Shown: one piece after another, positions 49,341 through 58,070 of the stretch
Numbering within the stretch: position 1 is the stretch's first letter
Layout: each line of letters begins with the position of its first letter
Source: Hyphomicrobiales bacterium
GTDB lineage: Bacteria > Pseudomonadota > Alphaproteobacteria > Rhizobiales > Methyloligellaceae
Length of the DNA: 58,070 nt
Assembly: GCA_021775595.1 (NCBI GenBank)
Contig: JAJFHN010000099.1
Location: forward strand, 1 to 58,070
Direction: 5' to 3'
Translations under genes and position numbers: made by a program
Notes under the pieces: model-generated
The model's input: only the letters and a program-made list of their open reading frames with translations
Told to the model about the DNA's origin: nothing
Database searches by the model: none

Positions 49341-50213
49341 ATGGCAATTGACTTGCGATCGATGACGCCAAAGGCGGCCAGAATCCTAGCCGTCTTGCCG
49401 CTCGTGCTGGCCGTGAACACTGCCCAAGCAGACGAGGCATCGCCGTGGGCGAAGGGCCATTATGCCCAGACGCGCTTGCTGTCGGGCGAGATCGCGGGCG
49501 TGACCGGCGAGTCTCAAATCGTTGCCGGAGTCCAGATAAAATTGGATCCGGGATGGAAGACCTATTGGCGCAACCCCGGTGATTCAGGTTTGCCACCCAG
49601 TTTTGACTGGTCGCAGTCGCAAAATCTCAAGAGCGCGAAGGTGCTTTGGCCGGCCCCCCATCGCTTCAGCGACAGTTATGGCACGTCGATTGGCTATACG
49701 GGCGGCGTGGTGTTTCCGGTCGAAATCGTCGCTGAGCGCAAGGGCGAACCGGTCGATGTCAAACTCAAATTGGATTACGCCATTTGCAAGGATATTTGCG
49801 TGCCGGCCGAGGCTAAGCTGGATTTACGCCTGGGTGATGGTGCGCGGCGTTCGGCGGGATTTGCGGGCGAAATCTCGCGCTTTATGACGCTGGTGCCGCG
49901 CAATGCAGCCAAAGAGGGCGCGGGCGCACCAAACATCGAACGCGCCGAAGCCAAACTTACAGGATCCGCGCCCAGCATTGTCGTCGAGGCGCGCTTTCCC
50001 AAGGGCTCCCAAGGGGCGGATCTATTTGCCGAGGGCGGTAGCGACATCTATCTGCCGCCACCCCAAACCATAAAAAAGACCGGCGCGGCCTCCGTTCGCT
50101 TCACCATTGCACTTAGCGAAGACGCCGAAACAGCCAAGCTGAAGGGCCGGGAGATCAAATTGACGCTTGTTTCCGATGCGGGCTCCTCGGAGACGCTGTG
50201 GACAGTCGAATAG
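49341..50213 (+). CDS. Periplasmic DsbD N-domain-like protein
   Basis: From ATG 49341 this is a 290-residue exported protein: signal peptide about residues 1-30 ending Ala-Gln-Ala, then an immunoglobulin-like domain like the alpha domain of DsbD. Typical pieces are GVQIKLDPGWKTYWRNPGDSG, TSIGYTGGVVFPVEI and YAICKDICVPAEA with two Cys four apart. It lacks the membrane and thioredoxin parts of DsbD, so it would be a soluble thiol-transfer or copper-resistance-type partner. The upstream gap carries TCACGC-AA-GCGTGA at 49240-49253, a possible palindromic operator. A TTG at 49302 is a less likely start. Confidence 0.83.
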   Translation: MAIDLRSMTPKAARILAVLPLVLAVNTAQADEASPWAKGHYAQTRLLSGEIAGVTGESQIVAGVQIKLDPGWKTYWRNPGDSGLPPSFDWSQSQNLKSAKVLWPAPHRFSDSYGTSIGYTGGVVFPVEIVAERKGEPVDVKLKLDYAICKDICVPAEAKLDLRLGDGARRSAGFAGEISRFMTLVPRNAAKEGAGAPNIERAEAKLTGSAPSIVVEARFPKGSQGADLFAEGGSDIYLPPPQTIKKTGAASVRFTIALSEDAETAKLKGREIKLTLVSDAGSSETLWTVE

Positions 50214-50241
50214 GCCTGAATCCCATCGATTGACACCAGCC

Positions 50242-50268
50242 TTGGCGCGCTATCGGCAAGCCTATAAG
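50242..50268 (+). promoter_or_regulatory. Candidate promoter of the peroxiredoxin gene
   Basis: TTGGCG (50242-50247) and TATAAG (50263-50268) lie 15 bases apart, in the 101-base gap before the peroxiredoxin gene; both are fair matches to a housekeeping promoter of an alphaproteobacterium (CTTG and CTATAA cores). The spacing is short, so this is only a candidate. Confidence 0.35.
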
Positions 50269-50314
50269 CTCGCGGTTCCAGACACCTCAGCCAAAATCAA
50301 CCGGAGGAAAGTTT

Positions 50315-50800
50315 ATGACGATCAGTGTCGGTGAGCGCCTGCCTGAGGCGACCTTTACCACCATGGGCGCCGATGGACCTGAAGCGGTGACAACGGCTCA
50401 GGTATTTGGCGGCAAGAAAGTGGCCGCCTTTGCCGTTCCAGGTGCCTTCACGCCGACCTGTCATGCCCAGCACCTGCCAGGCTTTCTGAAGGAATTGGAG
50501 GCGTTCCAGGCCAAGAGCGTCGACACGGTGGCCTGCATCGCCGTCAACGATGTCTTCGTGCTGCAAGCGTGGGCCAAGCAGAGCGGCGCCGACGGAAAAA
50601 TTGTGTTCTTGGCGGATGGCAACGGCGATTTCACGAAAGCGGCGGGTATGGAGCTCGACGTGCGCGCGGTTGGGCTCGGGGATCGCTCCCAACGCTACGC
50701 CATGTTGGTCGACGACGGCGTGGTGACGGCGCTTAACATTGAGGACGCGCCAGCCAGCGCCATCATGTCGAGCGCCGAGGAACTGCTCAAAGCGCTGTAG
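50315..50800 (+). CDS. Peroxiredoxin (Prx5-type)
   Basis: The 161-residue thiol peroxidase reduces hydroperoxides. The catalytic motif PGAFTPTCHAQHLPGF (Cys at about residue 49) is typical of Prx5-type enzymes, which use glutathione and glutaredoxin or thioredoxin; gshA is in the same window. There is no signal peptide. The ribosome binding site GGAGGAAAG is strong. It is convergent with rnhA; a short AGCGG...CCGCT stem follows the stop at about 50805-50820 and could aid termination. Confidence 0.93.
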   Translation: MTISVGERLPEATFTTMGADGPEAVTTAQVFGGKKVAAFAVPGAFTPTCHAQHLPGFLKELEAFQAKSVDTVACIAVNDVFVLQAWAKQSGADGKIVFLADGNGDFTKAAGMELDVRAVGLGDRSQRYAMLVDDGVVTALNIEDAPASAIMSSAEELLKAL

Positions 50801-50828
50801 TTACAGCGGGCCTGACCGCTCGGCAGGA

Positions 50829-51275
50829 TCACTGATAGGGCGCCATTCCAGCGCGCGCCAGTTCATCGGCGCGCTCGTTTTCGGGATGTCCGGCGTGACC
50901 CTTGACCCAGTGCCAAGATATCTCGTGACGGGCCTGCGCCTCGTCCAGGGCGTGCCATAAATCGTCGTTCTTGACTGGCTTGCGATTGGCGGTGCGCCAA
51001 CCGTTGCGCTTCCACTTGGTGATCCATTCGGTAATGCCGCTGCGCAAATATTTGGAATCGGTGTGGAGCTCGACGCGGCTCGGCCGGGTGAGCGCGTTTA
51101 AGGCTTCGATCGCGGCGAGCAACTCCATGCGGTTGTTGGTCGTTTCGGTCTCGCCGCCGCACAACTCCCTTTCGCTGTCACCAAAGCGCAGTAAGGCGCC
51201 CCATCCGCCGGGTCCCGGATTGCCCGAACAGGCTCCGTCGGTGAAAATCTCCACAATTTGCGCGTCATCCGCCAT
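50829..51275 (-). CDS. rnhA: Ribonuclease HI
   Basis: RNase HI cleaves RNA in RNA-DNA hybrids. The 148-residue protein has all four catalytic acids in family motifs: [31 protein letters not shown] and ERADELAR. The His of the [12 protein letters not shown] loop is also present. It follows thrB, overlapping by one base (TGATG), an arrangement shared with many rhizobia. Confidence 0.97.
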
Positions 51276-52243
51276 CAGGCGTTCTCCAAACCATATTCAT
51301 TGACCGACGTCACCCGGGCGTGGAAGCGCAGTTTGCGCAGATATTCGATTGGGTCTTTGCGTTCGACCAGCGCGTGCTCGCTGGTGTTGAGCCAATCGTA
51401 GACGCGCGTCAGCAAAAACCGCATCGCAGCGCCACGGGCGAGCAGGGGAAGAAATTCGAGCTCCTCTGTGCTCAAAACGCGCTCGCTCGTATAGGCATTC
51501 AGCAACGCCCGCGCCTTTGTCACATTGAAGGCGCCGTCGGGCTCAAAGCACCAGGCGTTGAGGCAAATTGCGATGTCGAGGGCCAACATGTCGTTGCAGG
51601 CGAAGTAGAAATCGATGAGGCCCGAAATCTTGGAGCCCAGAAAGAACACGTTGTCGGGAAACAGATCCGCATGAATGATCCCGGAGGGCAAAGCCGTGGG
51701 CCAGTTCGCTTCGAGATGGGCCAATTCGGTTTCAATTTCTTCGGCAAGTCCAGGAGCGATGGTGTCGATGTCGCCCCCGCAGGCCTCAAACAGCGGCCGC
51801 CAGCCATTGACCGAAAGAGAATTTGCCCGCTTGGCGCGGTAGTTTTGGCCGACCAAGTGAAATTCGGCCAGCGCCCGGCCGAGCAGCGCGCAATGCTCGA
51901 CGCGAGGGCGGCGGACCCATAGGCCCTCGAGAAACGTGATTATGGCGGCGGGCCGGCCGGCCAATTGGCGCAGCATTCGGCCTTCGCGATCGTGCAGCGG
52001 GGTTGGGCACTTGATGCCAGAAGTGGCCAAATGATCCATCAGTTCCAGAAAGAACGGCAGATCCTTCTGTGCCACGCGCTTTTCGTAAAGCGTCAGGATG
52101 AACGGACCCGATGACGTGTTCACCAGGTAATTGGTGTTTTCGACGCCTTCGGCGATGCCTTTGTAGGATTTGAGCTCGCCAAGCCCATAGCTCGCCACAA
52201 AGCGCGCCAATTCCTCGTCGCTCACTTGGGTATAAACGGCCAT
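51275..52243 (-). CDS. thrB: Homoserine kinase (ThrB, APH-like type)
   Basis: The enzyme phosphorylates homoserine. The 322-residue protein belongs to the aminoglycoside-phosphotransferase-like ThrB family of alphaproteobacteria, not the GHMP type of E. coli. Start [19 protein letters not shown] is the family N-terminus. The catalytic loop is [14 protein letters not shown] near residue 190 and the metal-binding Asp is in [13 protein letters not shown]. Between ispH (one-base gap) and rnhA (one-base overlap), clearly one operon. Confidence 0.94.
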
Positions 52244-52244
52244 A

Positions 52245-53231
52245 TCAGGCGCGCGCCGCCCCGATCAGTTCGCGCGGCAGTTTGAAGGCAACGTTTTCCT
52301 CGGCCGTAGCGATGCTGGAGACGGAGATGTCGAAGCGGGCGCCGAAAGCGGCGATGATTTCATCGACAAGCACTTCCGGTGCCGAGGCGCCCGCCGTGAT
52401 GCCGAGCGTCTCGATGCCCTCAAATGCGTCCCAAGGAATTTCGGCAGCCCGCTGGAGCAACAACGCCTTGGGGCAGCCGGCTTTTTCGGCAACCTCCACC
52501 AGGCGCTTGGAGTTTGAGCTGTTCTGCGCGCCGACCACGATCAGGGCCTCGCATTTTGCGGCGATTGCCTTCACCGCTGCCTGCCTGTTCGTCGTGGCAT
52601 AGCAAATGTCTTCCTTGTGCGGTCCGACGATGCTTGGAAAGCGTTCGCGCAAGATTGCGACGATCTCATCGGTATCATCGACCGACAGGGTAGTCTGGGT
52701 GATGTAAGCCAATGCGTTCGGGTTGTTTGGCTTGAAAGAGTGGGCTTGGCCGGCCGTTTCGATTAAGCGGACCGCGCCCGTGGGCAGCTGGCCCATGGTG
52801 CCGATCACTTCGGGATGGCCCGTGTGGCCGATCAGGATGATTTCATAGCCGTTGGCGAAATGACGCTCGGCCTCGACGTGAACTTTGGAAACCAGGGGGC
52901 AGGTGGCGTCCAGATAGAAAAAATTGCGCGCTTTGGCGCTCTCGGGCACCGATTTTGGCACGCCATGGGCAGAAAAGATGACCGGGGCGTCGGTTTCGGG
53001 GATTTCGTCGAGCTCCTCGACGAACACGGCGCCCTTATCGCGCAGACTGTCCACCACAAATTGGTTGTGAACGATCTCGTGACGCACATAGACCGGGGCG
53101 CCATAGGTTTTGAGCGCCAGCTCGACAATCTGTATGGCGCGGTCGACTCCGGCGCAGAATCCGCGGGGCGCGGCCAGCAGAATCTCAAGTGCCGGTTGGC
53201 TCTGTGCAACGTATTGATTTGATTGTGACAA
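52245..53231 (-). CDS. ispH: 4-hydroxy-3-methylbut-2-enyl diphosphate reductase
   Basis: IspH (LytB) is the last enzyme of the MEP isoprenoid pathway, an iron-sulfur reductase. The 328 residues have three conserved Cys for the cluster: PRGFCAGV near residue 22, DATCPLV near residue 109 and the region [11 protein letters not shown] with further Cys nearby; IVHN carries a conserved His. It starts at TTG 53231 with AAGG upstream and no ATG is available near the N-terminus. First gene of the ispH-thrB-rnhA operon. Confidence 0.96.
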
Positions 53232-53429
53232 TCGAATTTACCTTCAACTTAGAGTATGCAGTTTGTTGCGGCTAGAAAGGTCAAATGGCTCTTGCGGCCT
53301 CTGGGGTTGCCGGATAGGGTCATCAGCATTGTCGCAGGGCAATAATAAGAAATAAATGGTGGGCGGCACCGTGCAAGCATACAGATGTTTGTAAGCGTGG
53401 GCTGTCAAAATTTGTGAGTTGGGGGCCCG

Positions 53430-54068
53430 TTGCAAGACCGCAGGACTACTGCCGCCGGATCAGCTTGTTTGGTGTGCGTCTACGCGTTGATCGCGGTCGT
53501 ACTCTCTGGCTGTGCCATCTCGCAGATCACATCGCCCTTCCGCTCGCGTGGCGAGCGGGGAGGATGGGCGACGTCGGTCAGTGAAGAGCGTTTGCTTGAG
53601 GCTGCCAAAAACGACACGTCTTCCCAGGTAGATTTGCCGGCGCGGGATCAAAACTGCCCGCGATTTTCGGTCTGGCAACGCGACCGCATGCTGACCTTTT
53701 ACGAAAAGGGCCGGCGCGGTGATCAGTTGGCGATCAAATATCGTGGCGAGCTCACCAAAACCGCGCGCGAGTGCAATATCGGCCGCAATAAAATCTCGGT
53801 CAAATACGGTTATGCCGGTCGCGTGTTGCTGGGACAACGTGGCCAGCCCGGGACGCTCAGACTGCCCTTGCGAATTCATGTCACCGACGCGTCGCGCAAC
53901 ATCATTTCGAGCCAAACCACCACCGTTTCGGTCAACGTCGCGCCAGGCTCGCTGGTTGGCTATTTCTCGGCCGTCGGCAAGGTCAGCTTCGCGATCGAAA
54001 GCGGTACGTCGCCCTCCCAATACCAGCTCTATGTCGCCTTTGACCGCAATGCGGCGGGCTCGGGCTAG
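53430..54068 (+). CDS. Predicted lipoprotein of unknown function
   Basis: The 212-residue protein starts at TTG 53430 with GGGGG upstream. A signal peptide leads to a lipobox VVLSGC, with Cys28 lipidated. The mature part is beta-rich, basic and ends YVAFDRNAAGSG. I do not recognise a named domain, though similar alphaproteobacterial lipoproteins are familiar. Its 3'-terminal 60 bases recur with 90% identity at 56633-56692. The 198-base gap before it holds no gene I can support. Its stop overlaps the convergent sigma-factor gene by four bases. Confidence 0.8.
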   Translation: MQDRRTTAAGSACLVCVYALIAVVLSGCAISQITSPFRSRGERGGWATSVSEERLLEAAKNDTSSQVDLPARDQNCPRFSVWQRDRMLTFYEKGRRGDQLAIKYRGELTKTARECNIGRNKISVKYGYAGRVLLGQRGQPGTLRLPLRIHVTDASRNIISSQTTTVSVNVAPGSLVGYFSAVGKVSFAIESGTSPSQYQLYVAFDRNAAGSG

Positions 54069-54757
54069 CCCTTCAGCAAAGGCTTGAGCAACTCATAGAG
54101 CGCGATGCGAGCCTTGTGCAGACGAAGCTCGGCAACCTCCTCGCTTATTCGAAGCAATTCCGCTGCTTCGCGCGCTGGGCGCTGGTCGATATCGCGGAAT
54201 TGAATAATCAGTCGGTACATTTCAGGCAAGTCATTGAATTTGGTAATGACAAACTCACACCTGTCGTCCAACTGGCGGCTCTTGTTCTGCGCTGTCGGTT
54301 GGCCTGCCGGTTCTCCGCATTTAATATGCCTTTGTTGTGTGGCGAGCAGGGCATCGTCGAATGGCACCTGCGACTGATTGTTCATGGCCTGCAGTTTCTT
54401 CAGCGCTTGGATCACAACGATATGGCAGAGCCTGCTCTTTAGGCCTGAGTGTTCCTCGAAGTCTGCGATTTTTCGCAGTGTGTTGAAAAATGCCTCCTGA
54501 ACACAATCTTCCGCCAACACAGGGTCGGCGAGAAGATGCTCCGCAATAGCGGTCATCCACGGCATATGATCAAGAACAAATTTTTCGAGCGCTGTGTCAT
54601 CGTCCGAAATCAGCTCAGCGATCAACGATGCATCGCCTTTTCCTGCAGCAAAGGCCGAAATCGGATCATCTGAAGACGCTTGTTCCGCTGCCGCCAGATC
54701 GTTCGGGCGATGGTGGATGACATCCCTATCGCACTTTGATTTATCGCCGGTTCGCAT
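54065..54757 (-). CDS. RNA polymerase sigma factor, ECF-type
   Basis: From ATG 54757 (AGGGGAA upstream) this is a 230-residue sigma factor. Region 2 is at about residues 60-125 with LAEDCVQEAFFNTLRKI, and region 4 is at 175-228 with LPEMYRLIIQFRDI and ISEEVAELRLHKARIALYE. It therefore belongs to the ECF or short sigma-70 class. An extra N-terminal segment of about 50 residues is present. No anti-sigma gene is adjacent; the neighbour on one side is a lipoprotein gene and on the other an OxyR-type regulator, divergent across about 129 bases. The target promoters are unknown. Confidence 0.87.
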   Translation of the reverse strand: MRTGDKSKCDRDVIHHRPNDLAAAEQASSDDPISAFAAGKGDASLIAELISDDDTALEKFVLDHMPWMTAIAEHLLADPVLAEDCVQEAFFNTLRKIADFEEHSGLKSRLCHIVVIQALKKLQAMNNQSQVPFDDALLATQQRHIKCGEPAGQPTAQNKSRQLDDRCEFVITKFNDLPEMYRLIIQFRDIDQRPAREAAELLRISEEVAELRLHKARIALYELLKPLLKG

Positions 54758-54846
54758 GGGTTCCCCTGCCAATTTGATGAATCCGTCCTCTGATCTGGTT
54801 GGAGAATGGCAGGTATTACTTATCGACCAAAACGATATAAAATCCA

Positions 54847-54875
54847 TTTTCTATTCGAGTATTACGAATTATAAG
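54847..54875 (+). promoter_or_regulatory. Candidate promoter of the oxyR-type gene
   Basis: TTTTCT (54847-54852), 17 bases, TATAAG (54870-54875) points to oxyR. Transcription would start about 5 bases before ATG 54887, which fits the lack of a Shine-Dalgarno and suggests an almost leaderless message. On the minus strand TATAAT (54868-54873) overlaps the same bases and may serve the sigma-factor gene. TATCG-7-CGATA at 54821-54837 could be a regulator site. Confidence 0.35.
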
Positions 54876-54886
54876 ATGTGGGTGTG

Positions 54887-55786
54887 ATGAAGATCCTTCC
54901 TAGCCTAAAACAGGTCGAATACCTGGTGGCGCTTGCAGAGGCGCAGCATTTCGCTCGAGCGGCGAATGCGTGCAATGTGACGCCGTCAACATTGAGCGCC
55001 GGGATAAAAGAGCTCGAAGCGGTGCTTGGCGTCGAGCTGGCGGAGCGCACCAAAAGAACGGTTTTGATGACGCCGGTCGGCGTTGAAATTGCAAATCATG
55101 GGCGGCTGTTGCTGGGGCACGCGCAGGACCTGATGGATCTGGCAGCGACCCAGACCGAACCCTTAACGGGCGACTTGCACATTGGTGTAATTCCGACAGT
55201 CAGTCCGTTTCTGTTGCCCCGTGTTTTGCCGAACTTGATGAAGCATCATCCGCGACTGCGGCCTTTTCTGCGTGAAGAACCAACCGAAAATCTATTTGCC
55301 CGCTTGCGGCGCGGCGAACTCGACGTGGCGGTGGTTGCCCTCCCTTATGACATTGGTGGCTTTGACTGCGAGATCATGTTTGAAGATCCCTTCCAACTCG
55401 CTTGTTTGACAGACCATAAGTTGGTTAGCCAAGACTTGATTGAGCTAGAGGATCTCGACATCAATACGCTTCTGCTTCTTGGAGAGGGACATTGTATGCG
55501 CGGCCATGCGTTGGAAGCGTGCCAGCTCAACGAGAGGGACCGGCGATCTGAATTTGAAGCAACCAGCATGCATACAATCGTCGAAATGGTCGCAGCGGGC
55601 ATTGGAATTACGCTGCTGCCCCAAATAGCCATTGACGACGGTATTGCGAAAGATACGGATATCAATCTCATCCCGATTACGGGCGCACCGTCGCGGCAGA
55701 TCGGACTCATTTGGCGACAATCGTCGTCGCGTGCTGATGAGTTCAAAATTCTGGCGGATGAACTGACCCCCTCATCGTTGAAGTAG
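54887..55786 (+). CDS. oxyR: OxyR-type LysR-family peroxide sensor
   Basis: The 299-residue LysR regulator has an N-terminal winged helix-turn-helix (residues 1-62, with FARAANACNVTPSTLSAGI) and a C-terminal sensor domain. The peroxide-sensing cysteines are Cys203 and Cys212 in GHCMRGHALEAC, the same 9-residue spacing as Cys199/Cys208 of E. coli OxyR. It should therefore form a disulfide upon peroxide stress and activate antioxidant genes. I prefer ATG 54887 over GTG 54878. It is divergent from the ECF sigma gene; no catalase or ahpC gene is adjacent. Confidence 0.92.
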   Translation: MKILPSLKQVEYLVALAEAQHFARAANACNVTPSTLSAGIKELEAVLGVELAERTKRTVLMTPVGVEIANHGRLLLGHAQDLMDLAATQTEPLTGDLHIGVIPTVSPFLLPRVLPNLMKHHPRLRPFLREEPTENLFARLRRGELDVAVVALPYDIGGFDCEIMFEDPFQLACLTDHKLVSQDLIELEDLDINTLLLLGEGHCMRGHALEACQLNERDRRSEFEATSMHTIVEMVAAGIGITLLPQIAIDDGIAKDTDINLIPITGAPSRQIGLIWRQSSSRADEFKILADELTPSSLK

Positions 55787-55899
55787 AACGAGGGGAGCCC
55801 GGAAAGACACTATCGGTCCGTATTCATTGCCGCATTTCGGCTCGGACGAAAACGATGTCTGATGGGTCGGCGTCGCTTTGGGTTAAAAAAGCTGGATTG

Positions 55900-56136
55900 T
55901 TATCTGCGCCGAATCCGACGCAAACGGTCCACTTCTCGGGCGGCTTCAACCGCCCGGAATCGGGTATCGTCGACCGGCGGCGCGGACTCTTTCATCAAAT
56001 CAAGGCCTGCCACTTCGAGCAGCGCCGTCAGCGATATACCATTGCTGTCACAGAAATGACGGAAACCGTTCGCCGATTGCTGCGAAATTTTGGCAGTGAT
56101 TACAACACGCTCTTCATTCTTGATGTCAGCGGGCAT
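55900..56136 (-). CDS. Small predicted ribbon-helix-helix-like DNA-binding protein
   Basis: I support this as a gene from its composition and a pattern I associate with Arc/CopG-like DNA-binding folds. RVVITAKISQQSANGF could give the short beta strand, and HFCDSNGISLTALLEVAGLDLM the two helices, followed by a basic tail (REVDRLRRIRRR). It is 78 residues from ATG 56136, or 81 from GTG 56145. Neither start has a Shine-Dalgarno I can see. The intergenic DNA upstream carries a strong promoter for the opposite strand, overlapped by a 10-bp inverted repeat, the kind of site such proteins bind. Not assigned to a named family. Confidence 0.55.
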   Translation of the reverse strand: MPADIKNEERVVITAKISQQSANGFRHFCDSNGISLTALLEVAGLDLMKESAPPVDDTRFRAVEAAREVDRLRRIRRR

Positions 56137-56197
56137 CGATTTCACACGGATTCAAATCGGTTCAGAGCTCATTTCAATCCTAGTTACGACAAGCAGC

Positions 56198-56238
56198 TTG
56201 ACAATGCAACTAGTAGCAGCTATTCAAACTGCTACTAG
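56198..56238 (+). promoter_or_regulatory. Near-consensus promoter overlapped by a perfect inverted repeat
   Basis: TTGACA (56198-56203) and TATTCA (56221-56226) are exactly 17 bases apart, reading toward the small gene at 56297. A perfect inverted repeat, CTAGTAGCAG (56210-56219) and CTGCTACTAG (56229-56238) with a 9-base centre, covers the spacer, the -10 and the likely start site. A bound protein would block RNA polymerase. The DNA here is AT-richer than its surroundings: 50 G or C in the 120 bases 56161-56280. Confidence 0.65.
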
Positions 56239-56296
56239 CAGCACGTATAAGCAGATGTATGGAATTTATGTCGACGGGATGAGAATGGATGGGATC

Positions 56297-56527
56297 ATGA
56301 CCCGCAAGCGATCAACGACTAATACAGCTGGCAAAACATCCGCTAAAAAGACGCAGCCAGATGATATGGATCTGCTTGAAGGCGCAAAAATAGCGCAGTA
56401 CATAGGCTTTGAGTGCGAGGCGCTTCGAAAAATTGCCGTTTTGCATGACTTGAACTTCCTCGCCTACATTTTGAAAATGGCGGTCTTGGAGACAAAAATT
56501 GTATTGGGCGAGCACGATTTGACCTAG
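56297..56527 (+). CDS. Small conserved-looking protein of unknown function
   Basis: A 76-residue protein with a basic, Thr/Lys-rich N-terminus and a helical C-terminal part: GFECEALRKIAVLHDLNFLAY then ILKMAVLETKIVL. The latter is a pattern I have met in small alphaproteobacterial proteins of unknown function. ATG 56285 is another possible start; GGGATGAG and GGATGGGAT respectively precede the two. It lies directly downstream of the promoter with the inverted repeat and diverges from the ribbon-helix-helix-like gene. Toxin-antitoxin-like or regulatory pairing is conceivable but nothing shows it. Confidence 0.5.
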   Translation: MTRKRSTTNTAGKTSAKKTQPDDMDLLEGAKIAQYIGFECEALRKIAVLHDLNFLAYILKMAVLETKIVLGEHDLT

Positions 56528-56632
56528 CGGTCTGGAACAAACACACGCAAATAGCGCGGGATTGAATTGGAATGCTTTTGGCAAGGGCAAGGGCTTGGCA
56601 TCAGCAATTTTCAACGCAACTCAATGGTGTTG

Positions 56633-56692
56633 TTGCCCTGTCAATACCAGCTCTATGTCGCCTTCGACCGCAATGCAGCGGGCGCGGGCTAG
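56633..56692 (+). pseudogene. Remnant copy of the 3' end of the 53.4-kb lipoprotein gene
   Basis: These 60 bases match 54009-54068, the last 20 codons of the lipoprotein gene, at 54 positions; the last 51 differ at only three. The end QYQLYVAFDRNAAG and the stop codon are kept, with changes mostly synonymous (TTT to TTC, GCG to GCA, one TCG to GCG). Upstream of 56633 and after the stop the two loci differ. It looks like the trace of a second paralogous lipoprotein gene, otherwise lost. Confidence 0.75.
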
Positions 56693-56733
56693 AGACGGTT
56701 TTCCACGGAAATTGGCCAACGGGCGCGCGTCTG

Positions 56734-56761
56734 TTGACTCGGCCATTCGAGCTTCTATCAT
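56734..56761 (+). promoter_or_regulatory. Promoter of the glycine cleavage operon
   Basis: TTGACT (56734-56739), 16 bases, TATCAT (56756-56761) is a strong housekeeping promoter match (five of six at each box). Transcription would begin near 56768, about 38 bases before the glycine riboswitch, with no gene in between. Confidence 0.65.
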
Positions 56762-56805
56762 GCGCTCCGCCGCAGCCGTTGGCAGCGGCGACATGACCGT
56801 GTGAA

Positions 56806-57000
56806 CCCCGCGGGAGAGACCGGATCATTCCGGCGCCGAAGGAGCAACCGCCCCGGAAACTCTCAGGCAAATGGACCGCGGGGGGACGGCACTCTGGAAA
56901 GCAGGCGGCGTTCGACTTAAGGGCGCCGGCTCACCGAAGGGGATAGGCCCGCCAATTCTCGTTGCGCGGATAAATCTCTCAGGTTCCGTGACAGATGGGG
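56806..57000 (+). promoter_or_regulatory. Tandem glycine riboswitch
   Basis: Two glycine aptamers lie in tandem before gcvT. The first has a perfect 8-bp P1 (CCCCGCGG 56806-56813 with CCGCGGGG 56876-56883) and conserved GGGAGAG, GCCGAAGGAGCAA and ACTCTCAGGCAAATGGACCG blocks. The second (about 56887-57000) has CACCGAAGGGGATAGG, ATCTCTCAGGTTCCG and ACAGATGGGG. This class binds glycine cooperatively and usually switches on the glycine cleavage genes. The expression platform should lie between 57000 and the ATG at 57059. Confidence 0.93.
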
Positions 57001-57058: not shown

Positions 57059-58070
57059 ATGGCCGGGCAGCCTACCGAACACAGTCTTGACGATCTGAAG
57101 CGCACGCCGCTGCACGATTTGCATGTTGAGCTCGGCGCCAAGATGGTGCCGTTTGCCGGCTATGACATGCCCGTCAATTATCCGATGGGTATCCTCAAGG
57201 AACACCTGCATACGCGAGCGGCCGCCGGGCTGTTCGATGTCTCCCACATGGGGCAGGCCTTTGTGCGTGGACCAGACCATGACACCAGCGCCAGCGCGCT
57301 AGAGGCCCTGATGCCGGCCACGCTGCACGAGCTCGAGCCCGGCGCGATGCGATACAATTTTTTGCTCAATCAAGAAGGCGGCGTGATCGATGACTTGATT
57401 GTCAGCCGACCCGCTTCGGGTGACGACGGGGTGTTCATGCTGGTCGTCAACGCCGACCGCAAGGAAGTCGATTACCAGCATATACAAGCAATGCTGCCGG
57501 CCGGAGTTGTACTCAGCCGGTCGGACGAGAAGGCCCTGCTTGCACTCCAGGGACCGGCGGCGGCGGCCATACTGGCCTGTCATGCGCCTGGAGCCGATGC
57601 GCTTGATTTCATGACCATGGCGCGTTTGGAGTTCGACGGCATCGACTGCCAAATCAGCCGGTCCGGCTATACCGGAGAGGACGGCTTCGAAATTTCCGTA
57701 GCCGCCAGTCAGGCGGTCGATCTGGCGCGCATTCTGCTGGCCGATGTCGAGGTCGAACCGATCGGTCTTGGCGCGCGCGACTCGCTGCGGCTGGAAGCCG
57801 GGCTCTGCCTCTATGGTCACGATTTGGATGAGACGACTTCGCCGATTGAAGCCGGACTGATCTGGGCAATCGGTAAACGCCGGCGCAGCGATGGCGGCTT
57901 TCAGGGCGCTGAGCGGATTCAACGTGAGATTGCGGAAGGCGCGAGCCGGCGGCGCGTTGGCATCGGTATCGAGGGCCGCGCGCCGGCGCGTGAGGGGAGC
58001 GATATCGTCAATACCGACGGCCAGAAGCTGGGCCTGGTGACCAGCGGCGGCTTCGCGCCATCGCTCGGCC
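57059..58070 (+). CDS. gcvT: Aminomethyltransferase (glycine cleavage T protein), 3' end outside window
   Basis: GcvT takes the aminomethyl group from H protein to tetrahydrofolate. 337 codons are visible and the frame is open to the edge. Family landmarks: LKRTPLHDLHVELGAKMVPF at the start, AGLFDVSHMG near residue 60, the GYTGEDGFE motif near residue 200 and LGARDSLRLEAGLCLYGHDL near residue 240. Start ATG 57059 has GGAG upstream. The gene is under the glycine riboswitch; gcvH and gcvP probably follow beyond the window. Confidence 0.96.
   Translation, partial: MAGQPTEHSLDDLKRTPLHDLHVELGAKMVPFAGYDMPVNYPMGILKEHLHTRAAAGLFDVSHMGQAFVRGPDHDTSASALEALMPATLHELEPGAMRYNFLLNQEGGVIDDLIVSRPASGDDGVFMLVVNADRKEVDYQHIQAMLPAGVVLSRSDEKALLALQGPAAAAILACHAPGADALDFMTMARLEFDGIDCQISRSGYTGEDGFEISVAASQAVDLARILLADVEVEPIGLGARDSLRLEAGLCLYGHDLDETTSPIEAGLIWAIGKRRRSDGGFQGAERIQREIAEGASRRRVGIGIEGRAPAREGSDIVNTDGQKLGLVTSGGFAPSLG

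Follow-up and report, generated by a model that had tools for sequence, protein, structure and literature searches.

A putative ribbon-helix-helix repressor gene divergent from a small hairpin-protein gene, with a candidate operator in the shared gap

A gene for a ribbon-helix-helix (RHH) type protein and a gene for a small predicted helical-hairpin protein were found back to back in the window, the whole stretch of 58,070 nucleotides analysed here. The best reading of the pair, and in our view a probable one, is that of a dedicated local RHH repressor and its divergent target. The sequences indicate homologous proteins in a conserved divergent order, a conserved putative operator and -35 element, and confinement of that operator to the locus. 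From these features we infer a regulatory role of the RHH protein: it would occupy the operator and repress, and a signal would be needed for its release. In the proposed mechanism the minus-strand gene would encode a small RHH transcriptional repressor, dimers of which would bind the 14-bp palindrome TGCTACTAGTAGCA; in the window the two copies with one mismatch each would span the promoter spacer and the +1 stretch. The bound repressor would keep the hairpin-protein gene off until some signal releases it and the gene turns on. Thus the locus appears to be an on/off switch dedicated to an uncharacterised bacterial protein and not a toxin-antitoxin pair. It gives a candidate repressor-operator-target unit for a small-protein family unnamed in the searched libraries, yet matched in 119 of 170 genomes. 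The putative operator is known to single-base precision, which opens regulator binding and the inducing signal to direct tests. The features are the following.

55900 to 56145, minus strand: gene for the RHH-type putative repressor, 81 residues from GTG at 56145 or 78 residues from ATG at 56136
56177 to 56204, minus strand: likely RHH-gene promoter TTGTCA-16-TAGGAT (TTGTCA 56204-56199, TAGGAT 56182-56177), from the consensus scan
56198 to 56226, plus strand: putative hairpin-gene promoter TTGACA-17-TATTCA (TTGACA 56198-56203, TATTCA 56221-56226)
56205 to 56218, no strand assigned: candidate operator copy 1, TGCAACTAGTAGCA, one mismatch to TGCTACTAGTAGCA, in the promoter spacer
56230 to 56243, no strand assigned: candidate operator copy 2, TGCTACTAGCAGCA, one mismatch to TGCTACTAGTAGCA, just downstream of the -10
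56251 to 56262, plus strand: second shared motif, GCAGATGTATGG, containing GCAGAT, found in homologous gaps
56297 to 56527, plus strand: hairpin-protein gene, 76 residues, ATG at 56297, the stop ending at 56527; earlier in-frame starts are possible

The 81-residue minus-strand ORF and the 76-residue plus-strand ORF form a divergent pair sharing one control region, and both lie where the original prediction had them (56145-55900 and 56297-56527). Another plus-strand ORF at 55855-56238, overlapping the RHH gene, was dropped, having no convincing family match. The islet had also been described as AT-richer than its surroundings. The low GC is real, at 0.46-0.52 over 55750-56749 in 500-nt windows as compared with 0.55-0.63 over 50000-54000 and 0.59-0.65 from 56500 onward, but it is not limited to the islet, since GC drops to 0.50-0.55 already from about 54000. 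This preceding stretch harbours an ECF-type sigma factor gene (54065-54847, minus strand) divergent from a LysR-type regulator gene (54878-55786, plus strand), for which the best NCBIfam model was OxyR, under its cut-off.

A TTGACA-17-TATTCA pair directed toward the 76-residue ORF, overlapped by a perfect 10-bp inverted repeat, was the core of the original prediction, and both elements were recovered. The hexamers are separated by 17 nt at 56198-56226, and the arms of the repeat are CTAGTAGCAG (56210-56219) and CTGCTACTAG (56229-56238) with a spacer of 9 nt. By allowing mismatches, the arms extend to 15 nt (56205-56219 and 56229-56243) with 87% complementarity. Perfect repeats of this kind (10-bp inverted arms, spacer up to 30 nt) occur 6 times in the whole window and 1-7 times per sequence in ten dinucleotide shuffles, so the bare repeat is unremarkable in 58 kb. 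Within the 1,014 nt from 55787 to 56800 one repeat was found against 0.04 expected from 500 shuffles. The repeat rises above chance because it is kept in related loci, where its form also becomes clear: TGCTACTAGTAGCA is present in two imperfect copies in the window, and their halves that face each other make up the reported repeat.

Clear homologues of the minus-strand protein, with 51-56% identity, were found in the genomes G106, G064 and G139 among 151 genomes searched, the window's own (G000) included. As in the window, G064 (locus L009) and G139 (locus L010) have a hairpin-family gene divergent from the RHH gene. One of the checks originally put forward was whether relatives keep the divergent pairing together with its operator, and these two relatives bore it out; they share one genus, and the window belongs to another family. 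In G106 the RHH gene is present and its divergent partner is an unrelated ORF without a Pfam match. G106 is absent from the 119 hairpin-positive genomes, and no hairpin gene was found within 1.5 kb of its dprA. Between G064 and G139, identity amounts to 54 of 78 positions for the RHH proteins, 19 of 53 for the hairpin proteins and 121 of 202 for the gaps, and gap pairs involving G106, which cross families, have 92-109 identical of 152-166 positions. As the same-genus gaps are no more alike than the cross-family gaps, the intact palindrome is not explained by mere recent ancestry, in a comparison of four loci, with G064 and G139 belonging to one genus.

The palindrome TGCTACTAGTAGCA is perfect in the gaps of G064 and G139, with one copy each, and the window has two degenerate copies instead; the expectation that the repeat would recur at the relatives' loci was thereby confirmed. 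The best copy in the G106 gap has two mismatches, and the G106 genome contains another site of equal quality outside the locus. In G000, G064 and G139, the RHH locus is the only place with a site of one mismatch or none. An exact match to the palindrome was present in two of 397 genomes of the order, precisely at the RHH loci of G064 and G139. A control pattern made of the palindrome letters reversed was found once or twice in many other listed genomes, and the palindrome is therefore rarer than its composition implies. Exact matches in at least 120 viral stretches were taken as chance, since none of the 120 listed loci holds a relative of the RHH or hairpin protein at E 0.01. Furthermore, CTAGTAGCA was detected in all four homologous gaps, with 7 occurrences when both arms were counted; an 8-mer common to all four gaps never arose in 300 mononucleotide shuffles. 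The distance from the palindrome to TTGACA varies from family to family.

These distributions also bear on whether a different regulator occupies the palindrome, the RHH gene being a mere neighbour, which we find very improbable. The operator is putative, and all four gaps contain a second motif, GCAGAT, to which no owner is assigned; both points would leave room for another protein. GCAGAT has 6 occurrences across the four gaps, with GCAGATGTA in three of them, and in shuffle controls a 6-mer was common to four gaps in 32 of 300 sets, twice with 6 occurrences. Against another regulator stand the exact palindrome, which among the 397 genomes was found solely beside the RHH gene (2 genomes), and the outer neighbours, which differ between the loci according to ORF lists read by eye.

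All four homologous gaps contain TTGACA directed to the divergent partner; of 5,000 shuffled sets, none had it in every gap on the same strand. A poor -10, TAGTAG, follows TTGACA after 17 nt in G064 and G139 and lies within the palindrome. The hairpin-gene promoter is unlisted by the consensus scan in all three loci (window, L009 and L010); the scan omits TTGACA-17-TATTCA because it requires a T closing the second hexamer. In the region the same scan gave 3 sites, and shuffles gave 0.9. One of these is the likely RHH-gene promoter, the -35 of which overlaps the -35 of the divergent hairpin promoter in the window. The equivalent position in L009 holds TTGTCA-17-TATCAT as RHH-gene promoter, and no RHH-gene promoter was listed by the scan in L010. 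In the window, one operator copy fills the spacer of the hairpin promoter and the other follows its -10. Because the two promoters share the -35 stretch, the candidate operators cover the hairpin promoter and lie directly upstream of the RHH promoter. From this position, the operators would most naturally serve to repress the hairpin gene. Auto-regulation, as originally suggested, is possible, since a repressor bound this close to the likely promoter of its own gene may also adjust its own expression.

In systems of the TetR/tetA type, the regulator gene stands back to back with its target and the operator lies in the common gap. The window resembles these in having a regulator back to back with a presumed target and the candidate operator on the target's promoter; it differs in that the regulator is RHH-type and the target an uncharacterised hairpin protein.

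The assignment of the minus-strand protein to the RHH type, part of the original prediction, was supported by profile alignment. With hhalign, residues 7-50 of the four-sequence alignment aligned ungapped with positions 1-44 of five RHH_1 members from related genomes, the domain being cut by hand. The score of 16.37 exceeded all 200 column shuffles (maximum 11.62) and the reversed control (4.0); both alignments are shallow, and hhalign's own probability was just 3.7% with E 0.0036. Helices were predicted at residues 19-32, 36-48 and 56-77 with low confidence (pLDDT 62.4). The first two lie where RHH proteins have them; the monomer model shows no strand. Fold searches with this model returned four Foldseek matches (best E 5.4) and, in a second comparison, five chains, with no RHH protein among them. 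No trustworthy match to Pfam, NCBIfam, PHROGs or PADLOC was found, and at E 0.001 PF01402 matched nothing in the own genome. Since no curated RHH model reaches the protein, it is named RHH-type and not a member of a named family. Relative to RHH repressors of the MetJ/Arc/CopG superfamily (RHH_1, PF01402), the N-terminal unit of about 45 residues is in full register, the protein is small and basic with two helices as expected, and a palindromic site covers the promoter. Unlike these, it has no listed family model and adds a charged C-terminal helix, which is conserved and equally so in the G106 homologue. The protein fits an RHH repressor with an N-terminal unit as in RHH profiles. A literature search, in which the operator sequence CTACTAGTAG was included, found no description of this RHH subfamily or its operator. 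Just downstream of the G064 RHH gene (L009 1917-2399, plus strand) we noticed an ORF whose N-terminus, judged by eye, resembles RHH and which has no Pfam match.

The distribution of the RHH protein is sparse and patchy. Five of 151 genomes had a match at E 0.01 or better, namely the own genome, G106, G064, G139 and, marginally, G109. With the own genome counted in both cases, the four-sequence profile had matches in 5 of 397 genomes of the order, one of them weak, and in 2 of 385 of the class, one of them both weak and partial. No new relatives were obtained in small family searches around G064 (3 genomes) and G106 (4 genomes). Several candidates were dropped: G109 as weak, with E 0.008 in one search and 0.025 in another; G708 likewise, with 32 residues matched at E 2.8e-4; G213 (E 5.4e-5), the ORF of which was judged by eye to be antisense to other genes; and L012, a 28-residue match inside a 237-aa ORF without evident kinship.

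An origin from phage, also suggested originally, found no backing. No relatives of the RHH protein were detected in plasmid or phage records, nor matches to its profile in viral contigs, and no hairpin protein was found in plasmids (searched with the G139 and window proteins) or phages (searched with the G064 protein).

The plus-strand protein was modelled by AlphaFold2 as a two-helix hairpin with helices at 23-49 and 53-74 (mean pLDDT 80.8). As with its neighbour, none of Pfam, NCBIfam, PHROGs and PADLOC gave a match that could be trusted, in agreement with the original statement that neither protein could be placed in a named family. When 29 members of its family were compared with Pfam and NCBIfam, isolated single-member hits were found, none of them shared. 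Fold searches yielded generic helical bundles in the PDB and nothing among viral models at E 0.001. Rop-like hairpins share the two antiparallel helices and a similar length (1f4m, Z 7.9, rmsd 1.1 over 55 residues; 1rop, Z 6.6, rmsd 1.8 over 55 residues), yet identity is 11% and such Z values are common for helical hairpins. The modelled resemblance is no evidence of kinship or of RNA binding.

Relatives were first hinted at by five weak matches, spread over 4 of 60 other genomes. A six-sequence profile then matched the hairpin family in 119 of 170 genomes, own included. A dprA gene was present within flanks of about 1.5 kb in 22 of 32 hairpin loci examined (e.g. L003, L005-L007 and L156-L163), a count biased toward dprA loci by the profile, four of whose seeds adjoin dprA; repeat copies of one place were left out of the 32, and the window, G064 and G139 loci were counted. 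As the family often adjoins dprA, our guess is that the hairpin protein may be an adaptor in DNA metabolism. The window hairpin gene is the sole family match in its genome, and no hairpin copy was detectable at that genome's own dprA locus. Kinship was supported by a 25-member profile from which the window, G064, G139 and L004 proteins were excluded; when run on 313 ORFs of five loci, it matched the window ORF (6e-13), G139 (3.7e-7), L004 (4.5e-6) and G064 (2.8e-5), nothing else among the 313 ORFs and nothing in the G106 locus. A test for a single clade of the three operator-linked hairpins needed 3 tree changes and did no better than shuffled labels, 500 of 500 label shuffles being as low, on a tree weakened by long branches.

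The original prediction likened the module to a toxin-antitoxin system, in which the RHH protein would be antitoxin and autorepressor and the 76-residue protein the toxin, encoded divergently. RHH is one of three main DNA-binding types of type II antitoxins, and antitoxins repress their own operon by operator binding (PMC4803016). An RHH fold common among such operon-repressing antitoxins would accord with this reading, as would two small adjacent genes, one for a small DNA-binding protein, with a common operator-like site over the promoter. Here, however, the two genes diverge at all three loci (window, G064 and G139), which makes a single operon impossible, and the partner is a predicted helical hairpin without a toxin or defence family match, although a novel kind of toxin is conceivable. 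The hairpin family is matched in 119 of 170 genomes and the RHH protein in 5 of 151; the hairpin partner is of a widespread family, found mostly without this RHH protein. Conversely, the RHH gene of G106 is paired with an unrelated divergent ORF in a genome without a hairpin match, and a hairpin paralogue in G064 and G139 has an HTH regulator instead. With divergent genes, no obligate pairing and no toxin-family partner, a toxin-antitoxin pair is highly improbable, and that part of the prediction was not supported.

G064 and G139 have 8 and 7 hairpin matches, of which 6 and 4 places were inspected. At the paralogous loci L188 (2012-2653) and L191 (1439-2115) of these genomes, the hairpin gene is divergent from an HTH_3/HTH_31 regulator unrelated to RHH, and a BLUF photoreceptor gene lies beyond the regulator. 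These two loci count as one case because their genomes share a genus. L191 displayed TTGACC-17-TACAAT with the -10 inside a perfect 7+1+7 palindrome, ACGTACAATGTACGT. L188 displayed TTGACC-17-TACATG and only a shorter palindrome, CGTACATGGTACG, read by eye; the inverted-repeat script detected no palindrome there. A palindrome over a TTGAC-17 promoter is accordingly found in both RHH- and HTH_3-linked hairpin cases. In L207 (G011) a hairpin gene has a divergent AraC-family gene, and no palindrome was found. This was the one locus in which a divergent regulator was confirmed among 20 further hand-picked hairpin loci; in the other 19, the listed divergent ORFs, where there were any, look mostly antisense by eye. 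Divergent regulators dedicated to a hairpin gene thus recur, but they are not general.

Related hairpin genes facing different regulator classes suggest that conditional hairpin supply was selected more than once. A wider proposal, which we consider unlikely, is that the hairpin family has repeatedly come under dedicated divergent regulators of unrelated fold (RHH, HTH_3 and possibly AraC), the hairpin being a general adaptor and its conditional copies switchable inputs to DNA processing that may feed back on the regulator.

Feedback could also be the essence of the locus itself: the hairpin protein would bind the RHH repressor as an anti- or co-repressor and give a bistable or pulse circuit. 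Divergent promoters packed closely enough for their -35 elements to overlap, as in the window and L009, would suit such a circuit, a hairpin is a plausible protein-binding scaffold, and the charged C-terminal helix of the RHH protein could be the docking site. That helix is, however, equally conserved in G106, whose neighbour is no hairpin protein, and hairpin paralogues adjoin other regulators or none that could be confirmed. Four loci are too few for a test of co-evolution, and we regard a feedback switch as doubtful.

Downstream of the hairpin gene, a glycine riboswitch aptamer (RF00504, 78.8 bits) was identified at 56801-56888 on the plus strand, upstream of an ORF at 57059. This ORF reads like gcvT, an arrangement that we take to be ordinary.
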